This document shows, piece by piece, positions 22,791 to 30,463 of a stretch of 64,000 nucleotides of DNA. The DNA is from Elainella sp. Prado103. GTDB lineage: Bacteria > Cyanobacteriota > Cyanobacteriia > Elainellales > Elainellaceae. The position numbers were made by a program, and so were the translations under genes. The notes under the pieces are model-generated. The model had not been told where the DNA came from. It was given only the letters and a program-made list of their open reading frames with translations, and ran no database searches. Location of the stretch: the NCBI GenBank assembly GCA_025454395.1, contig JALOOM010000001.1:62001-126000 (forward strand), in the 5' to 3' direction. How positions within the stretch are numbered: position 1 is the stretch's first letter; every line of letters begins with the position of its first letter.

Positions 22791-23816
22791 CTAGCTGGCT
22801 GCATTTAATGCTCTCTCGACCCGGCGGAAATCAAACCCCATCGATCGAAGGGCGTGCCAGAGATGTCCTTGCAGAAAGAAGAACGCCAAGAAGAAATGCG
22901 CATTGGCTAACCAGGCCCGTGAGGTATGTGCGCCTAATGGTAACTCCACCGTATCGGCAAAATAAGGAGTAATTCCCAATTTCACTTCTAGAGGGGCACC
23001 ATAAAACTCGATCGGGTAAGCTAAAGTGTTCACTGCACAGAAGTAGGCTGCTACAAAGCCAGCAAGGGCGATCCCTCCTAAGGAGTAGGACAAAATTGCT
23101 TCTCCAGAGAAGTCAAGCACCTTTTTAGCCCAACTGAGCGGCGGCACAAGAATATGCCAGATCCCTCCTGCAATCAACATCACGCCAACATAGATGTGAC
23201 CACCCACTAAATCTTCCAGATTATTTACACTAGCGAAGTGGGTCTGATATCCATAGATCGTTAATGGATCAAGGGTCGGTTGCGTAACCAGTCGAACTGC
23301 TTGAATGGTTGAATCATACAATCCACCCCAATACATGGCTTTGGCCACAAGTAGTAAAGCCCCGCCTCCCAGAAACAGCAAGTGATGTCCTAAAATTAAA
23401 CCCAGTTGTTTGGGATCGCCCCACTCAAAGTGAAACTTCCGAGCTTGTCCACTCGCATCCTTGAGACTTTCTGGGGCTTTGAAAGTATGGAAGAGCGCCC
23501 CTGCACCGAGAACGGCCGACGAAATCAGGTGTACAGCGCCGACAACAAAATAGGGATAGGTATCCACAACCGCACTACCTTGCCCCATGCCTAATCCGAG
23601 AGTGGCTAAGTGGGGCAGGAGAATCAGCCCTTGCTCACCCATGGGAATCGCTGGGTTATAGCGAGAAATTTCAAATAGCGTAAATGCACCTGTCCAAAAC
23701 GTGATCAGGGCTGCTTGTGCAACATGAGCGGCAATAAACAGTCCAGAAAGTTGGGCAAAGCGAGCGTTACCCGCCCACCAATCATATTTCACATTTGGGT
23801 TTTCGTAAGTTTGCAT
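22791..23816 (-). CDS. isiA: Iron-stress chlorophyll-binding protein IsiA (CP43')
   Basis: The 341 aa protein has six membrane helices of the CP43 antenna family but lacks the large lumenal loop of PsbC, as expected for IsiA. It starts [20 protein letters not shown] and ends with the helix [21 protein letters not shown]. It forms chlorophyll antenna rings around photosystem I under iron starvation. The ATG at 23816 has a strong GGGAGG ribosome-binding site five bases upstream; a longer frame exists but is not used. isiB follows and fur precedes on the same strand. A Fur-box-like palindrome lies about 360 bp upstream, implying a long leader. Confidence 0.95.
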
Positions 23817-24484: not shown

Positions 24485-25033
24485 TTATGGCTCAGTTAGA
24501 TCCGATGGATGAGAGAGTTCTTGAAGAGGCATGTGACCGCATTGCATCGAGCGCTGACAGAGCCAATCACGCGGTAAAGTCTGATTCCAACCTTCTGCCA
24601 CTGCTTCTGGACAGATGACATAAACCGTTAATTGACAGTCGAGGAGATGGTAACCCTCAGTTTCAGCTTGACGAGAACCGATCCGATCGATCAAATCACT
24701 TTCAAATTCCAGGGTTTTGTTGCACTGCACGCAAACCAAATGATGATGCTGATGGGGATTGGGTGAATTGAGTTCATAATGTTTATGCCCTTCTGCCAGC
24801 TCCAATTCTCGCAGAATTCCCATATAAGCCATTAAATGAAGGGTGCGATATACCGTTGACAAGCTAATCCGCTCGCCTTGTTGCCTCAGAATATGATGCA
24901 GGTCTTCAGCACTGAGATGTTTACCTTGGGGCAGGGTCTGAAAAATGTGCAGAATGGTTTGCCGTTGGGGAGTGAGACGGAATCCACGCTGATTGAGAAA
25001 AGACTTGAGCGAAGCTGGGGTGTTGAGCGACAT
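24485..25033 (-). CDS. fur: Ferric uptake regulator Fur (FurA type)
   Basis: The 182 aa repressor has the winged-helix domain (RGFRLTPQRQTILHIF, then ISLSTVYRTLHLMAYMGI as recognition helix) and a C-terminal metal and dimer domain with ELAEGHKHYEL, HQHHHLVC and CVQC. It closely resembles cyanobacterial FurA sequences as I recall them. There is one CxxC pair; the region of a second pair reads VICPEAVAEGW, a variant also found in known Fur proteins of this group. It should repress iron-stress genes when Fe2+ is present. The isiA-isiB genes, classical Fur targets, lie directly downstream on the same strand. Confidence 0.92.
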   Translation of the reverse strand: MSLNTPASLKSFLNQRGFRLTPQRQTILHIFQTLPQGKHLSAEDLHHILRQQGERISLSTVYRTLHLMAYMGILRELELAEGHKHYELNSPNPHQHHHLVCVQCNKTLEFESDLIDRIGSRQAETEGYHLLDCQLTVYVICPEAVAEGWNQTLPRDWLCQRSMQCGHMPLQELSHPSDLTEP

Positions 25034-25569: not shown

Positions 25570-27024
25570 ATGGCATACATGCTGAAGCCCACGGTTGATA
25601 CTTGGCTCAAGTTAAGTACGGCTCAAGGTTCCACCTTACCGGATACCCAACGCCAATTGGTTGCTGCCGGTAGCGTATTGCCGCTGGCTAGTTTTGAGCT
25701 GATCGGAGATGACCATATCCGGATCGCATTAGGGCGGAATGCTCAAGGGGAGCAGGTGCAATTTCAAGGACGGAACACCTGGTTGGTCTATCGTCCAGCA
25801 GTGCAGATTTTACGGGACGGACAGGTAATTGCGATTCCTAATTCTGCTGGATCGTCATCTCCCGGATCGTCATCTCCCGGATCGTCCGCACCTGGACAAT
25901 TTTTTGTGAAGCCTTTAACAGATACCTGGCTCAAGTTAAGTCCGGCTCAAGGTTCGACCCTGGCTGACTCGCAGCGCCAGTTTATTCGGGGTGGAGAAGC
26001 ATTGCCGATCACTAGCTATGCTGAGGCTGAGAACGATCATCTTCGGATCACCTTAGGCAAGGATGCTCAGGGGAACCAGATTTGGTTTAAAGGACGCAAC
26101 ACTTGGTTGGTTTACCGGCCCTCGGTGCAAATTTTGCGGAATGAACAAGTGATTTCGAGTCCTGCTCCTGCCCCCCAACCTACACCTCGTCCAGCCCCAG
26201 TGCCCACTCCTATCCCAACCCCACCACCTGCTCCAATGCCTAGCCCCATGCCCACTGCCACAGCGCTCACCTTGCGTACCATTGCAGACACTTGGTTAAA
26301 ACAGAGTACTGGACAAGGGGCTACTCTACCGGAGGAGCAGCGGCAGTTCATCAATGGGGGCACAACCCTACCGATCGAGAGCTTTGCCCCCGTCGAAAAC
26401 GATCACCTTCGGATTACCTTAGGACGCGATCAGGCAGGCAATCAGCTCCAGTTCAAAGGACGGAATACCTGGTTTGTTTATCGCCCGGTTGTGCAATTAC
26501 TCCGGAACGGGCAGCCCGTGCCCATGCCCAGTCCTATGCCCAGCCCTCTGCCAACTCCAACCCCCGTCAGTAACACCGGGCGGATTAACGCCAAAGGATT
26601 GCGGCTCTTAAAGTCGTTTGAAGGATTGCGGTTGCGAGCCTATCAAGACTCGGTGGGTGTTTGGACGATCGGGTATGGCACTACGAGCGGCGTGCGTCCG
26701 GGAATGGTGATTACCGAATCAGAAGCGGAAGAACTGATGAAGCGGGATCTGCGTCGCTTTGAGCAAGCGGTATCCGATCTCGTCAAAGTGCCGCTCAATT
26801 CCGACCAGTTTTCCGCTCTGGTGTCTTTTGCCTATAACGTCGGTGAGGGCGCACTGGCTAGCTCAACCCTGTTGCGGCTATTAAATCAACGCGATTATCA
26901 GGGAGCTGCCGATCAATTGCTGCGTTGGGATAAGGCGGGGTCACAAGCACTGGCTGGCTTGACTCGTCGCCGGAAAGCTGAGCGAGCCCTATTTTTAGGA
27001 CAAGATTACACGGCTTTTCTGTGA
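25570..27024 (+). CDS. Modular GH24 (phage-type) lysozyme with three N-terminal repeats
   Basis: The 484 aa protein has three copies of an approximately 80 aa module (residues about 4-85, 113-190, 233-310), each starting near DTWLK, with DDHIRI/NDHLRI and GRNTW(L/F)VYRP. Linkers are Ser-Pro-Gly and Pro-rich. A C-terminal GH24 domain (339-484) keeps the T4-lysozyme triad spacing: Glu351, Asp360, Thr366. It would cleave peptidoglycan; the modules may bind wall or matrix. No signal peptide is seen, as in holin-dependent endolysins, yet no phage genes are near. Start at 25570 is set by AGGAG seven bases upstream. A 14-bp tandem array contains its stop codon. Confidence 0.88.
   Translation: MAYMLKPTVDTWLKLSTAQGSTLPDTQRQLVAAGSVLPLASFELIGDDHIRIALGRNAQGEQVQFQGRNTWLVYRPAVQILRDGQVIAIPNSAGSSSPGSSSPGSSAPGQFFVKPLTDTWLKLSPAQGSTLADSQRQFIRGGEALPITSYAEAENDHLRITLGKDAQGNQIWFKGRNTWLVYRPSVQILRNEQVISSPAPAPQPTPRPAPVPTPIPTPPPAPMPSPMPTATALTLRTIADTWLKQSTGQGATLPEEQRQFINGGTTLPIESFAPVENDHLRITLGRDQAGNQLQFKGRNTWFVYRPVVQLLRNGQPVPMPSPMPSPLPTPTPVSNTGRINAKGLRLLKSFEGLRLRAYQDSVGVWTIGYGTTSGVRPGMVITESEAEELMKRDLRRFEQAVSDLVKVPLNSDQFSALVSFAYNVGEGALASSTLLRLLNQRDYQGAADQLLRWDKAGSQALAGLTRRRKAERALFLGQDYTAFL
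25849..25893 (+). repeat. 15-bp in-frame tandem repeat, 3 copies, in lysozyme linker
   Basis: Unit GGATCGTCATCTCCC, two perfect copies and one diverged, coding for a Ser-Ser-Ser-Pro-Gly style linker between modules 1 and 2. Confidence 0.85.
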
Positions 27025-27053
27025 TGGCTTTTCTGTGACGGCTTTTCTGTGAT
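27012..27053. repeat. 14-bp tandem repeat, 3 copies, spanning the lysozyme stop
   Basis: Unit GGCTTTTCTGTGAT. The first copy codes for the last residues and the TGA stop of the lysozyme gene; the other two are non-coding. Confidence 0.85.
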
Positions 27054-27155
27054 GACGTGAACTCTATAGGCGTAAAAGAATTCATCGTAAAAGCATCCAG
27101 ATTTGTTTTTTCCTGAGAGAATTAGGAACATCCTAAGCAACTGGGAGAAATCTCG

Positions 27156-27854
27156 ATGTCTTTACATGAGCAGATCAACGCGATCGTATCCGAAAAGCAC
27201 CTGCTGACCCATCCTTTTTATGTCGCTTGGACAGAAGGTAAGCTGACGCGCGATCACTTGAAAGAGTATGCAAAACAGTACTTTCACCATGTGCTGGCAT
27301 TCCCAACCTACATTAGTGCCGTTCATTTCAACACCCCCCATCTAGCGGTGCGCCAAGAGTTGCTCGACAATCTCGTCAGTGAGGAGCAAGGAGACAAGAA
27401 CCATCCAGCATTGTGGCGCAATTTTGCGATCGCGTTGGGTGCTACTGCCGAAGAACTGGAAACTTCGGAAAAGCTAGCTTCCACCACCCACTTGATTGAC
27501 ACCTTCCGGCAACTCTGCCTCAATTCGCCTTTTTATGCTGGTTTAGCGGCTCTGCATGTTTACGAATCTCAGATTCCAGAAGTGGCAACAGTCAAAATTG
27601 ATGGCTTGCAACGCTTCTACGGTATGAACAACCCAGCCGACTACGAGTTTTTCTCAGTGCATCAGGTGGCAGATGTTTACCATGCAGACTCCACGGCTAA
27701 GCTGATCGACACCTATGCCATCACAGAAGCTCAACAAGCTGAAGTGAAGCAAGCGGCTGAAACCGCAGCCCATGCTCTCTGGCAATTCCTGGATGGGGTT
27801 TATGAAACCTACTGTCAGGATGTGGCAGCAGAGCCAGCCATGGTCACCGCGTAA
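27156..27854 (+). CDS. CADD-family protein, candidate self-sacrificing pABA synthase
   Basis: The 232 aa helical protein belongs to the TenA/PqqC-like CADD family. Compared from memory with Chlamydia trachomatis CADD it aligns without gaps at an offset of five. The di-metal ligands map to Glu76, His83, Glu137, His169, Asp173 and His176. Tyr22 matches Tyr27 (source of the aromatic ring in CADD), Tyr38 matches Tyr43, and Lys147 matches Lys152. CADD makes p-aminobenzoate for folate synthesis by consuming its own side chain with O2. The gene is monocistronic, with a GGGAGA ribosome-binding site and a strong terminator. Identity with TenA (thiaminase) is unlikely given the match. Confidence 0.88.
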   Translation: MSLHEQINAIVSEKHLLTHPFYVAWTEGKLTRDHLKEYAKQYFHHVLAFPTYISAVHFNTPHLAVRQELLDNLVSEEQGDKNHPALWRNFAIALGATAEELETSEKLASTTHLIDTFRQLCLNSPFYAGLAALHVYESQIPEVATVKIDGLQRFYGMNNPADYEFFSVHQVADVYHADSTAKLIDTYAITEAQQAEVKQAAETAAHALWQFLDGVYETYCQDVAAEPAMVTA

Positions 27855-27909
27855 AGGTTGAGTCCAGTGCTTCTGGTTCATGCTACTACCAGTAAGTTAC
27901 CGTCTAATC

Positions 27910-27949
27910 ACTGATACTCACTGATACTCACTGATACTCACTGATACTT
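27910..27949. repeat. 10-bp tandem repeat, 4 copies
   Basis: Unit ACTGATACTC, three perfect copies and one with a changed last base, between the CADD gene and its terminator. Confidence 0.85.
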
Positions 27950-27965
27950 CTACGAATACTTGCAG

Positions 27966-28003
27966 AGGTGCGAATCGATCGGGTGATCGATCGCACCTTT
28001 TTT
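27966..28003 (+). terminator. Rho-independent terminator after the CADD gene
   Basis: AGGTGCGA-A-TCGATC pairs with GATCGATCGCACCT around a GGGT loop with one bulged A, followed by a run of T to 28003. Confidence 0.88.
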
Positions 28004-28210
28004 ATGTTGCTGTCTACCTTGCTTGTGGACGTAGCACTCTTGTCGTTGAATTGAAAACTGCCTAAGGTAGTGGATTGAAAAAGCTGGAAGATGGAGCATC
28101 CCCTGTTTCGATCGCAGGCAGTTGCAGTTTTTGGCAGCTCTTTTAGGATGGTAAATACGATTCGTGATGGTTCCGTCACCTTGCCCAAATTAAGCGCAGA
28201 ATCTGAACTT

Positions 28211-30463
28211 ATGCCTGAAATTATTGAGCTAGATGGACGCATATATGCCCCGGCAGAGCAACTATCTGTACCGGAAACTTGTGCGGCAACTACGCGCTTT
28301 CAGCCAACCCTCACGCTTAAGGATGATGATCTATTTTTGATCACCGATACTTTAGGAAACATTAATGGGTGTGTTGGCGAAGATAGCAATACCAGCCTGG
28401 GATTGTTCTGTCGAGATACGCGATTTTTGAGCTTATTAGCACTCCAGATTGAAAAGCGAACTCCCGTGTTGCTCAGCAGCACAGCCCAAAAAGGGTTTGC
28501 ACTCTCCGTGCTTTGTGCCAATCCCTATATCGAGAATTGCTTACCTGCGGAAGTGATCGGCATCCAGCGAGAATTGGTGCTCAACGGCGGGCTATTTGAG
28601 GAGTTAACGATTACCAACTATAGCCGGGAGCCCGTGGCGTTTGAACTCAGGCTGACTTTTGGGGCTGATTTCGCGGATTTATTCCAGATCCGCGGGTTTA
28701 CGCGGGAGAATCAAGGGCAATTGATGCAGCAGATCAAGTCGCTGCCAGATGGAGAATTAGCTGCTTCTCCGGAGTCTGCCACTGAGCCCCTGTTAGACAA
28801 TGGCGAGCTGTCGCTAGCTTACCAAGCATTGGATGGGGTGTTAGTTGAATCCCGCCTTCAGTTTTCCTATCATCAGCCCGATCGATTTGAAGGATTTACG
28901 GCGATCTGGCAACTGGCGCTGGCTTCTCATGAAACGCAGCAGTTGGGCTATCGGTTGCAGCCGATGATTAATAATCGTCAGGCTTCTATGGTCAGTGCTC
29001 CCATGACTTTGCGACAGGCAATTGCCGCAGAATCAATGGAAAAGCAGGACTGGTGTGCCTCAGTCACGCAAATTCGATCGGATAATCGGGCATTTAATGA
29101 GGTGATCGAACGAGCAGAACAGGATATTTACTTACTGCGGCAAACCTTTGGTAAAGATAAAGTGCTGGCAGCAGGCATTCCCTGGTTTTCGACCTTATTT
29201 GGGCGAGATTCGATCATTGCAGCCGCTCAAACCTTGATTCTCGATCCCCGCATTGCGCGACAAACCCTAGTCAGTCTGGCTCAGTACCAAGGACAGGTAG
29301 ATGATGAGTGGCGAGAAGAACAGCCTGGCAAAATTTTACATGAACTGCGCTTGGGAGAAATGGCCCGCTGTGGCGAAGTGCCACACACCCCCTACTATGG
29401 CACAGTTGATGCCACGCCGCTTTGGCTGATGCTCTATGCGGAATACTACGCTTGGACTCACGATCGCGAAACGTTAGAGCACCTCTGGGGAAATGCCCTC
29501 GCTGCGATGGAGTGGATCGATCGCAATTGTCATGAAACAGGCTATTTGTCCTATATGCGGCGCTCCAGCAAGGGACTCCGCAACCAAGGGTGGAAAGATT
29601 CGGAAGACTGTATTGTCAACCGCAAAGGTGAACTGGCAGAGGGATCCATTGCCCTCAGTGAAGTGCAAGGCTATGTCTATGCGGCTAAAGTGCGGTTGAG
29701 TGAAATCGCTCGCCTGAAAAAACGGTTAGATTTGGCCGATCGCTGGTTGGAAGAAGCCAAAGATCTCCAAGCTCGGTTTAACCGTGATTTCTGGGTAGAA
29801 GATCAGGGCTATTGTGCAATGGCTCTGGATGGCGACGGTAAAGTGGTGGATGGGATCAGCTCAAATCCAGGCCATTGTCTAGGGTTGGGGATTTTATATC
29901 CTGACAAGGCTCGCAGTGTGGCAGAACGACTGCGCGCTCCCGATATGTTCAATGGCTGGGGAATTCGGACCCTCAGTAGCTTGTCACCTGCCTATAATCC
30001 GATGGGCTACCATATTGGTTCGATCTGGCCCCATGACAATGGCTTAATTGCGGCCGGATTGCGCTCTATTGGATTGGTTGAACAAGCCCTGGAAGTAGCC
30101 CAAGGCATCATCGATATGACGCTGCAACAGCCTTATCAACGGCCACCCGAACTGTTCTGTGGTTATGAGCGGGCTGCCGATAGTAGCCCCGTGCGTTACC
30201 CGGTGGCCTGTTCTCCCCAAGCTTGGGCCACAGGAGCGATCTTCCAGTTTTTGCAAATTATGGTAAATCTGATGCCGGATGCGCCCAGCAATCAGCTTCG
30301 GGTAATTGATCCAACTTTGCCACCTTCAGTTGGTCGCCTCTCGTTGCATAATTTGCGGATCGGCGAAACCGTACTGGATTTGGATTTTGAGCGATCGGGC
30401 GGAACAACCGCCTGCCGTGTCACTCGGAAACGGGGAAATTTACGGGTGATTATCGAAGCCTGA
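28211..30463 (+). CDS. Amylo-alpha-1,6-glucosidase / glycogen-debranching-type protein
   Basis: The 750 aa protein has an N-terminal beta-sandwich (about residues 1-280; includes LFLITDTLGNI and GLFCRDTRFLS) and an (alpha/alpha)6-barrel with GIPWFSTLFGRDSIIAA, KILHELRLGEMA and a C-terminal YQRPPELFCGY segment. This is the layout of the glycogen debranching N-terminal domain family, found in many cyanobacteria. It may hydrolyse alpha-glucan side chains or a compatible-solute glycoside, but the substrate is unknown. The frame is open from 28091; the ATG giving MPEIIELDGRIYAPAE is preferred because the preceding 40 residues look unlike the family. It follows the CADD terminator. Confidence 0.85.
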   Translation: MPEIIELDGRIYAPAEQLSVPETCAATTRFQPTLTLKDDDLFLITDTLGNINGCVGEDSNTSLGLFCRDTRFLSLLALQIEKRTPVLLSSTAQKGFALSVLCANPYIENCLPAEVIGIQRELVLNGGLFEELTITNYSREPVAFELRLTFGADFADLFQIRGFTRENQGQLMQQIKSLPDGELAASPESATEPLLDNGELSLAYQALDGVLVESRLQFSYHQPDRFEGFTAIWQLALASHETQQLGYRLQPMINNRQASMVSAPMTLRQAIAAESMEKQDWCASVTQIRSDNRAFNEVIERAEQDIYLLRQTFGKDKVLAAGIPWFSTLFGRDSIIAAAQTLILDPRIARQTLVSLAQYQGQVDDEWREEQPGKILHELRLGEMARCGEVPHTPYYGTVDATPLWLMLYAEYYAWTHDRETLEHLWGNALAAMEWIDRNCHETGYLSYMRRSSKGLRNQGWKDSEDCIVNRKGELAEGSIALSEVQGYVYAAKVRLSEIARLKKRLDLADRWLEEAKDLQARFNRDFWVEDQGYCAMALDGDGKVVDGISSNPGHCLGLGILYPDKARSVAERLRAPDMFNGWGIRTLSSLSPAYNPMGYHIGSIWPHDNGLIAAGLRSIGLVEQALEVAQGIIDMTLQQPYQRPPELFCGYERAADSSPVRYPVACSPQAWATGAIFQFLQIMVNLMPDAPSNQLRVIDPTLPPSVGRLSLHNLRIGETVLDLDFERSGGTTACRVTRKRGNLRVIIEA

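Follow-up and report, generated by a model that had tools for sequence, protein, structure and literature searches.

A 64,000-nucleotide stretch of the cyanobacterium Elainella sp. Prado103 (contig JALOOM010000001.1, positions 62,001 to 126,000; the whole stretch is hereafter called the window) carries a gene for a CADD/PabS-type protein, a member of a known family whose chemistry is known from Chlamydia and Nitrosomonas. Very probably (about 0.9), this protein is the cell's source of p-aminobenzoate (pABA), which it would make by self-sacrifice, replacing PabB and PabC. A first-pass annotation of this DNA had raised the idea that a photosynthetic bacterium uses such a route for folate; this is supported by a host genome devoid of PabB and PabC, by the retention of the relevant residues, and by mutual exclusion of the two routes across 60 cyanobacterial genomes. 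In the list of open reading frames (ORFs) the gene has an ATG start and the same boundaries as in that annotation:

27156..27854, + strand: predicted CADD/PabS-type self-sacrificing pABA synthase, 232 amino acids (aa) (ORF; TIGR04305, PDB 9pj4 and 1rcw, and model superposition, with scores below)

The protein matches the NCBIfam CADD model TIGR04305 over its full length, scoring 296.6 bits where the cut-off is 200 (residues 5–217 on profile positions 3–212 of 212). Its best match among solved structures is the 4-aminobenzoate synthase 9pj4 (2.4e-91), followed by Chlamydia CADD 1rcw (2.9e-54) and 8va9. A predicted model (predicted local distance difference test score 88.7) has the heme-oxygenase-like helical fold and superposes on CADD 1rcw with a Z score of 30.2 and a root-mean-square deviation of 1.4 Å over 213 residues; the next family by superposition is PqqC (Z 25.4). 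In the HMMER alignment with CADD (1rcw/8va9), query residue 3 corresponds to CADD residue 8 and no gap occurs until past the last catalytic residue, which bears out the constant offset of five proposed in the annotation.

All nine residues that had been named there, comprising six metal ligands, Tyr22, Tyr38, and Lys147, are present in the window protein. Tyr22 and Lys147, the two positions singled out for an alignment check, are kept both in the CADD alignment and in 105 homologues. The residues are listed below with their counterparts in Chlamydia CADD and in NePabS of Nitrosomonas europaea (NE1434; PMC11965152).

27219..27221, + strand: codon of Tyr22 (CADD Tyr27, NePabS Tyr25), the residue that the relatives consume as scaffold for pABA (alignment; 105 homologues; role from PMC11965152)
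27267..27269, + strand: codon of Tyr38 (CADD Tyr43, NePabS Tyr41), essential in NePabS (alignment; 105 homologues; role from PMC11965152)
27381..27383, + strand: metal ligand Glu76 (alignment; 105 homologues)
27402..27404, + strand: metal ligand His83 (alignment; 105 homologues)
27561..27563, + strand: Tyr136 (CADD Tyr141, NePabS Phe148), second-sphere residue on which metal preference depends (homologue alignment; role from PMC11965152)
27564..27566, + strand: metal ligand Glu137 (alignment; 105 homologues)
27594..27596, + strand: codon of Lys147 (CADD Lys152, NePabS Lys159), amine donor (alignment; invariant in 105 homologues)
27648..27650, + strand: Phe165 (CADD Tyr170, NePabS Phe177), second-sphere residue (homologue alignment)
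27660..27662, + strand: metal ligand His169 (alignment; 105 homologues)
27672..27674, + strand: metal ligand Asp173 (alignment; 105 homologues)
27681..27683, + strand: metal ligand His176 (alignment; 105 homologues)

The window protein thus has the six dimetal ligands of CADD/PabS (three His, three carboxylates), while the second essential Tyr and the relay aromatics of NePabS (Tyr41, Tyr45, Trp99) are matched by Tyr38, Tyr42, and Trp87. The 105 aligned homologues come from cyanobacteria, Nitrosomonadaceae, and one Chlorobiales metagenome-assembled genome, with some genomes entered twice; Tyr22, Trp25, Tyr38, Tyr42, Glu76, His83, Trp87, Glu137, and Lys147 are invariant among them, as are His169, Asp173, and His176 apart from one row that is gapped there. 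Named genomes were retrieved with two peptide patterns, one of which included the Tyr, a possible source of bias. The sacrificial Tyr is kept also in the cyanobacterial genomes found by hidden Markov model, which are free of this bias.

These residues also bear on whether the protein is instead a CADD-fold oxygenase acting on another small molecule, like PqqC, BesC, UndA, or TenA, with pABA coming from elsewhere. Such an enzyme would share the superfamily and the fold, and the window protein does match BesC and PqqC weakly. However, its scores of 59.5 bits for BesC (NCBIfam NF042919, equivalog cut-off 500 bits) and 55.7 bits for PqqC (NCBIfam TIGR02111, equivalog cut-off 240 bits) are far under the curated cut-offs. 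The wider-superfamily cyanobacterial proteins that match TIGR04305 weakly keep most ligands and have Leu or Val for Tyr22, Leu, Tyr, Phe, or Ile for the donor Lys, and a replaced Tyr38, substitutions that the CADD set never shows. An oxygenase with another substrate would, in addition, leave the mutual exclusion with PabB and PabC described below unexplained, and we regard it as very improbable.

For the self-sacrificing synthase, we infer chemistry and metal use from the characterised relatives, two of which are biochemically proven (PMC11965152). The dimetal site (E76, H83, E137, H169, D173, H176) would activate O2, and the oxidising equivalent would pass via aromatic residues (Tyr42, Trp87, and neighbours) to Tyr22. 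The Cα–Cβ bond of Tyr22 would then be cut, leaving a glycine, and the freed ring would be oxidised with O2 to bear the carboxylate, with the amine coming from Lys147, which would end up as aminoadipate. The pABA would be released to FolP, each protein molecule being used once.

The window's genome is a draft of 5.84 Mb (99.3% complete, 157 contigs), and its pab-gene content was determined by family searches. Two proteins of the Chorismate_bind family were found, a TrpE and an isochorismate synthase, with no PabB among them; the TrpE has its best match to TrpE models (514.3 bits, slightly below the cut-off of 517.7) and is placed in the TrpE clade. The sole Aminotran_4 protein is clearly IlvE, and that search returned no PabC. 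A single TrpG/PabA-type glutaminase scores over the cut-off, and TrpE needs this subunit as well. Of the pabA, pabB, and pabC genes, for which the annotation had suggested a genome search, all that is left is a glutaminase shared with TrpE. FolP, which consumes pABA, and FolK are both present, and pABA is therefore needed; the genome thus combines FolP with a lack of PabB and PabC, as is expected of a CADD/PabS host.

The same relationship was followed through two sets of genomes. Of 386 evenly sampled cyanobacterial genomes, 12 (with the window's either among them or additional to them) have a TIGR04305 protein over the cut-off. All 12 possess chorismate enzymes only of the TrpE and isochorismate-synthase types and no more than one Aminotran_4 protein, which is of the IlvE type, whereas an extra PabB-type enzyme and a PabC-type protein are present in each of the 14 CADD-negative genomes compared. 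The second set was the order to which the window belongs, with 36 genomes in a single family; here PabB or PabC occurs in none of the 13 CADD-positive genomes and both occur in 21 of the 23 CADD-negative ones, often fused in one ORF of ~580–700 aa; the two exceptions are assemblies only 77% and 85% complete. When both sets are pooled (60 genomes), PabB/PabC is found in 0/24 CADD-positive genomes and both genes in 34/36 CADD-negative genomes, classes having been assigned by trees and identities for fetched sequences and by score range, profile range, and fusion or adjacency for the others (Fisher p 9e-15, a value that ignores relatedness). A TrpE tree of 53 genomes requires 10 state changes by parsimony against 17 with shuffled labels. 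As some of its nodes are weak, we say only that CADD and PabB/PabC appear to have been swapped about ten times in cyanobacteria. This mutual exclusion supports the predicted pABA role well beyond one genome.

It also weighs on two further explanations. Promiscuous TrpE/TrpG and IlvE could make pABA, or pABA or folate could be taken up, leaving CADD incidental; TrpE, TrpG, and IlvE are indeed present and are paralogues of PabB, PabA, and PabC. Yet CADD-negative genomes retain PabB and PabC even though they too have TrpE and isochorismate synthase, a reciprocal pattern repeated in some ten switches would have to be coincidence, and FolP and FolK are retained, all of which makes this explanation hardly credible. 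Least probable of all is that PabB and PabC lie in gaps of the assembly, as the 157 contigs might suggest. Against this, the genome is 99.3% complete, and both genes would have to have been overlooked in all 24 CADD-positive genomes, among them one in a single contig (G414) and one in five contigs (G255).

Two genera exemplify replacement of one route by the other at close range. In genus g1, CADD is found in the window's genome, G395, and G397, while G396 lacks it and has a PabB-PabC fusion elsewhere in its genome (NCBIfam pabB, 366.6 bits vs a cut-off of 328.4). The syntenic site of G396 retains lysozyme-like, amylase-like, and GST-like genes in the window's order, and no CADD was found between the lysozyme stop codon and the amylase-like frame, which are ~110–155 bp apart. 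Because the lysozyme-CADD adjacency is common to genomes of other genera (G394, G414), loss of CADD in G396 is the simpler reading. Four genomes of genus g13 have CADD beside a metal ABC transporter or beside that transporter's neighbours. At this site, G099 has a stub of the first ~30 codons in which ATG has become ATC and the rest is deleted (L177:2790-2900); the stub adjoins a Zn/Mn-type ABC permease, and pabB and pabC lie side by side elsewhere (L178).

The latter locus offers an observation on nomenclature. Model NF004610 (PRK05940) labels the protein at L178:2059-3537 (-) anthranilate synthase component I (774.8 bits). The same protein is also over the PabB-clade2 cut-off, adjoins pabC, and is exchanged with CADD, for which reasons NF004610 is probably a PabB model under the wrong name. 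Separately, two full CADD genes are present in one genome, G320, on different contigs (C89, C123).

Several points weigh against the window protein as the cell's pABA source. The genome is a draft in 157 contigs, although the same picture is seen in 24 genomes; the cyanobacterial members are known from sequence only; and the genome tally is uncorrected for shared ancestry, save for the ~10 changes on one gene tree. The window gene does not cluster with folate genes, and no such clustering was noticed among the shared neighbours of cyanobacterial CADD genes. Finally, the in vitro yield of NePabS is <0.1 pABA per monomer (PMC11965152), a low value that leaves room for an activator or a second function.

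The second-sphere residues allow a prediction of metal use. NePabS, with Phe148/Phe177, uses Fe/Fe, CADD, with Tyr141/Tyr170, uses Mn/Fe, and the NePabS variant F148Y is active with both metal pairs (PMC11965152). The Tyr136/Phe165 pair of the window protein is the F148Y arrangement occurring naturally, and the enzyme is accordingly predicted to accept either Fe/Fe or Mn/Fe. Across the 105 rows, position 136 is Tyr in 48, Phe in 56, and Leu in one, the cyanobacterial rows listed carrying Tyr, and position 165 is Phe throughout bar one gap. A loop longer by nine residues is found in all 57 Nitrosomonadaceae rows and is absent from the window protein; at the place of this insertion, the extra loop of NePabS is a proposed activator site (PMC11965152). 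More tentatively, and with the odds somewhat against it, cyanobacterial PabS proteins may be naturally cambialistic one-shot pABA synthases that have been repeatedly exchanged with PabB-PabC; if so, folate supply in these lineages would be coupled to protein synthesis and metal status.

Around the gene, the window contains a lysozyme-like gene 131 bp upstream and an amylase-like gene ~236–360 bp downstream (the distance varies with the start codon chosen), both on the same strand, and the first-pass description of the CADD gene as isolated does not hold. A scan for promoters found nothing. One further feature precedes the amylase-like gene:

27976..28003, + strand: intrinsic-terminator-like hairpin with T run, ~120 bp past the CADD stop codon (pattern match only)

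The amylase-like gene (28091-30463, +) probably starts later than its longest ORF, at about 28211 (MPEIIELDG), because it is around this point that similarity to the G396 copy sets in. Short tandem repeats lie on both sides of the CADD gene (14 bp x3 and 10 bp x4; 27012-27054 and 27908-27948). Two genes upstream of CADD is a Fur-family regulator (24485-25033, -), near which IsrR, the antisense RNA to isiA, is found at 23246-23423 (+) (Rfam RF01419, 120.3 bits). A 72%-identical relative of this regulator directly follows CADD in G401 (L270:5294-5881, +), and no NCBIfam Fur/PerR/Zur model reaches its cut-off. The CADD cluster of g13 includes ZnuABC-like genes, a COG0523 GTPase, and an ArsR-type regulator (L179 of G336, L008, L009, L011, L012). 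A link between CADD and metal regulation, based on the Zn/Mn-type transporter and COG0523 in g13 and on Fur here and in G401, was considered and set aside, as these arrangements are confined to a few genomes. Plasmid-borne CADD copies were likewise discarded: the candidates on Cupriavidus and Caballeronia plasmids are only superfamily members of 29% identity.

Reliance on a one-turnover enzyme as the only source of an essential vitamin precursor has been associated chiefly with intracellular bacteria; among free-living ones, Nitrosomonas is the characterised case. Free-living cyanobacteria of ~6 Mb that lack the canonical genes, and whose sister species may swap routes, would make the cost of a whole protein per pABA testable in close relatives. 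Their CADDs would supply new enzymes for work on a mechanism still unsolved, among them a natural second-sphere intermediate, and predictions of folate auxotrophy from missing pabB/pabC would be wrong for such cyanobacteria. No earlier report of a cyanobacterial CADD was found in the open-licence literature; PMC11965152 lists Wolbachia, Rickettsia, Chloroflexi, Sphingomonas, and Nitrosomonas, and its text has no match for 'cyanobacter'. As far as that literature shows, the cyanobacterial occurrence, the reciprocal replacement, and the natural Tyr136/Phe165 pair are new.

Cyanobacterial CADDs form two groups that are ~41–46% identical to each other. Group 1 comprises the window's family and other Leptolyngbya-like lineages and lies near Nitrosomonadaceae, and group 2 is mainly family f10; the join of group 1 with Nitrosomonadaceae is weak (support 0.23 in a midpoint-rooted FastTree tree that leaves out Chlamydia and Chloroflexota). 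Nitrosomonadaceae members share ~56–63% identity with the window protein, and NePabS, likewise from a free-living host, corresponds to it at Tyr25, Tyr41, Lys159, and the metal ligands; it differs in having Phe at both second-sphere sites and the longer Nitrosomonadaceae loop. Chlamydia trachomatis CADD (CT610) has the same length and fold and all the residues at offset 5, but is ~40% identical and has Tyr at both second-sphere sites with Mn/Fe use; in addition, its gene lies among folate genes and a role in the host cell is reported for it, neither of which is seen for the window protein. The Nostoc 'CADD-like' protein Npun_F6505 (PDB 3b5o/3b5p) shares the superfamily fold (Z 18–19.5) at 15–16% identity, compared by fold and overall identity rather than residue by residue; the weakly matching cyanobacterial heme-oxygenase-like proteins without the sacrificial residues are others, and Npun_F6505 is not among them. 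Canonical PabB-PabC, often fused in related cyanobacteria, is absent from the window's genome and differs in its unrelated folds and in turning over chorismate many times, but it delivers the same metabolite to FolP and has the same role in sister species.
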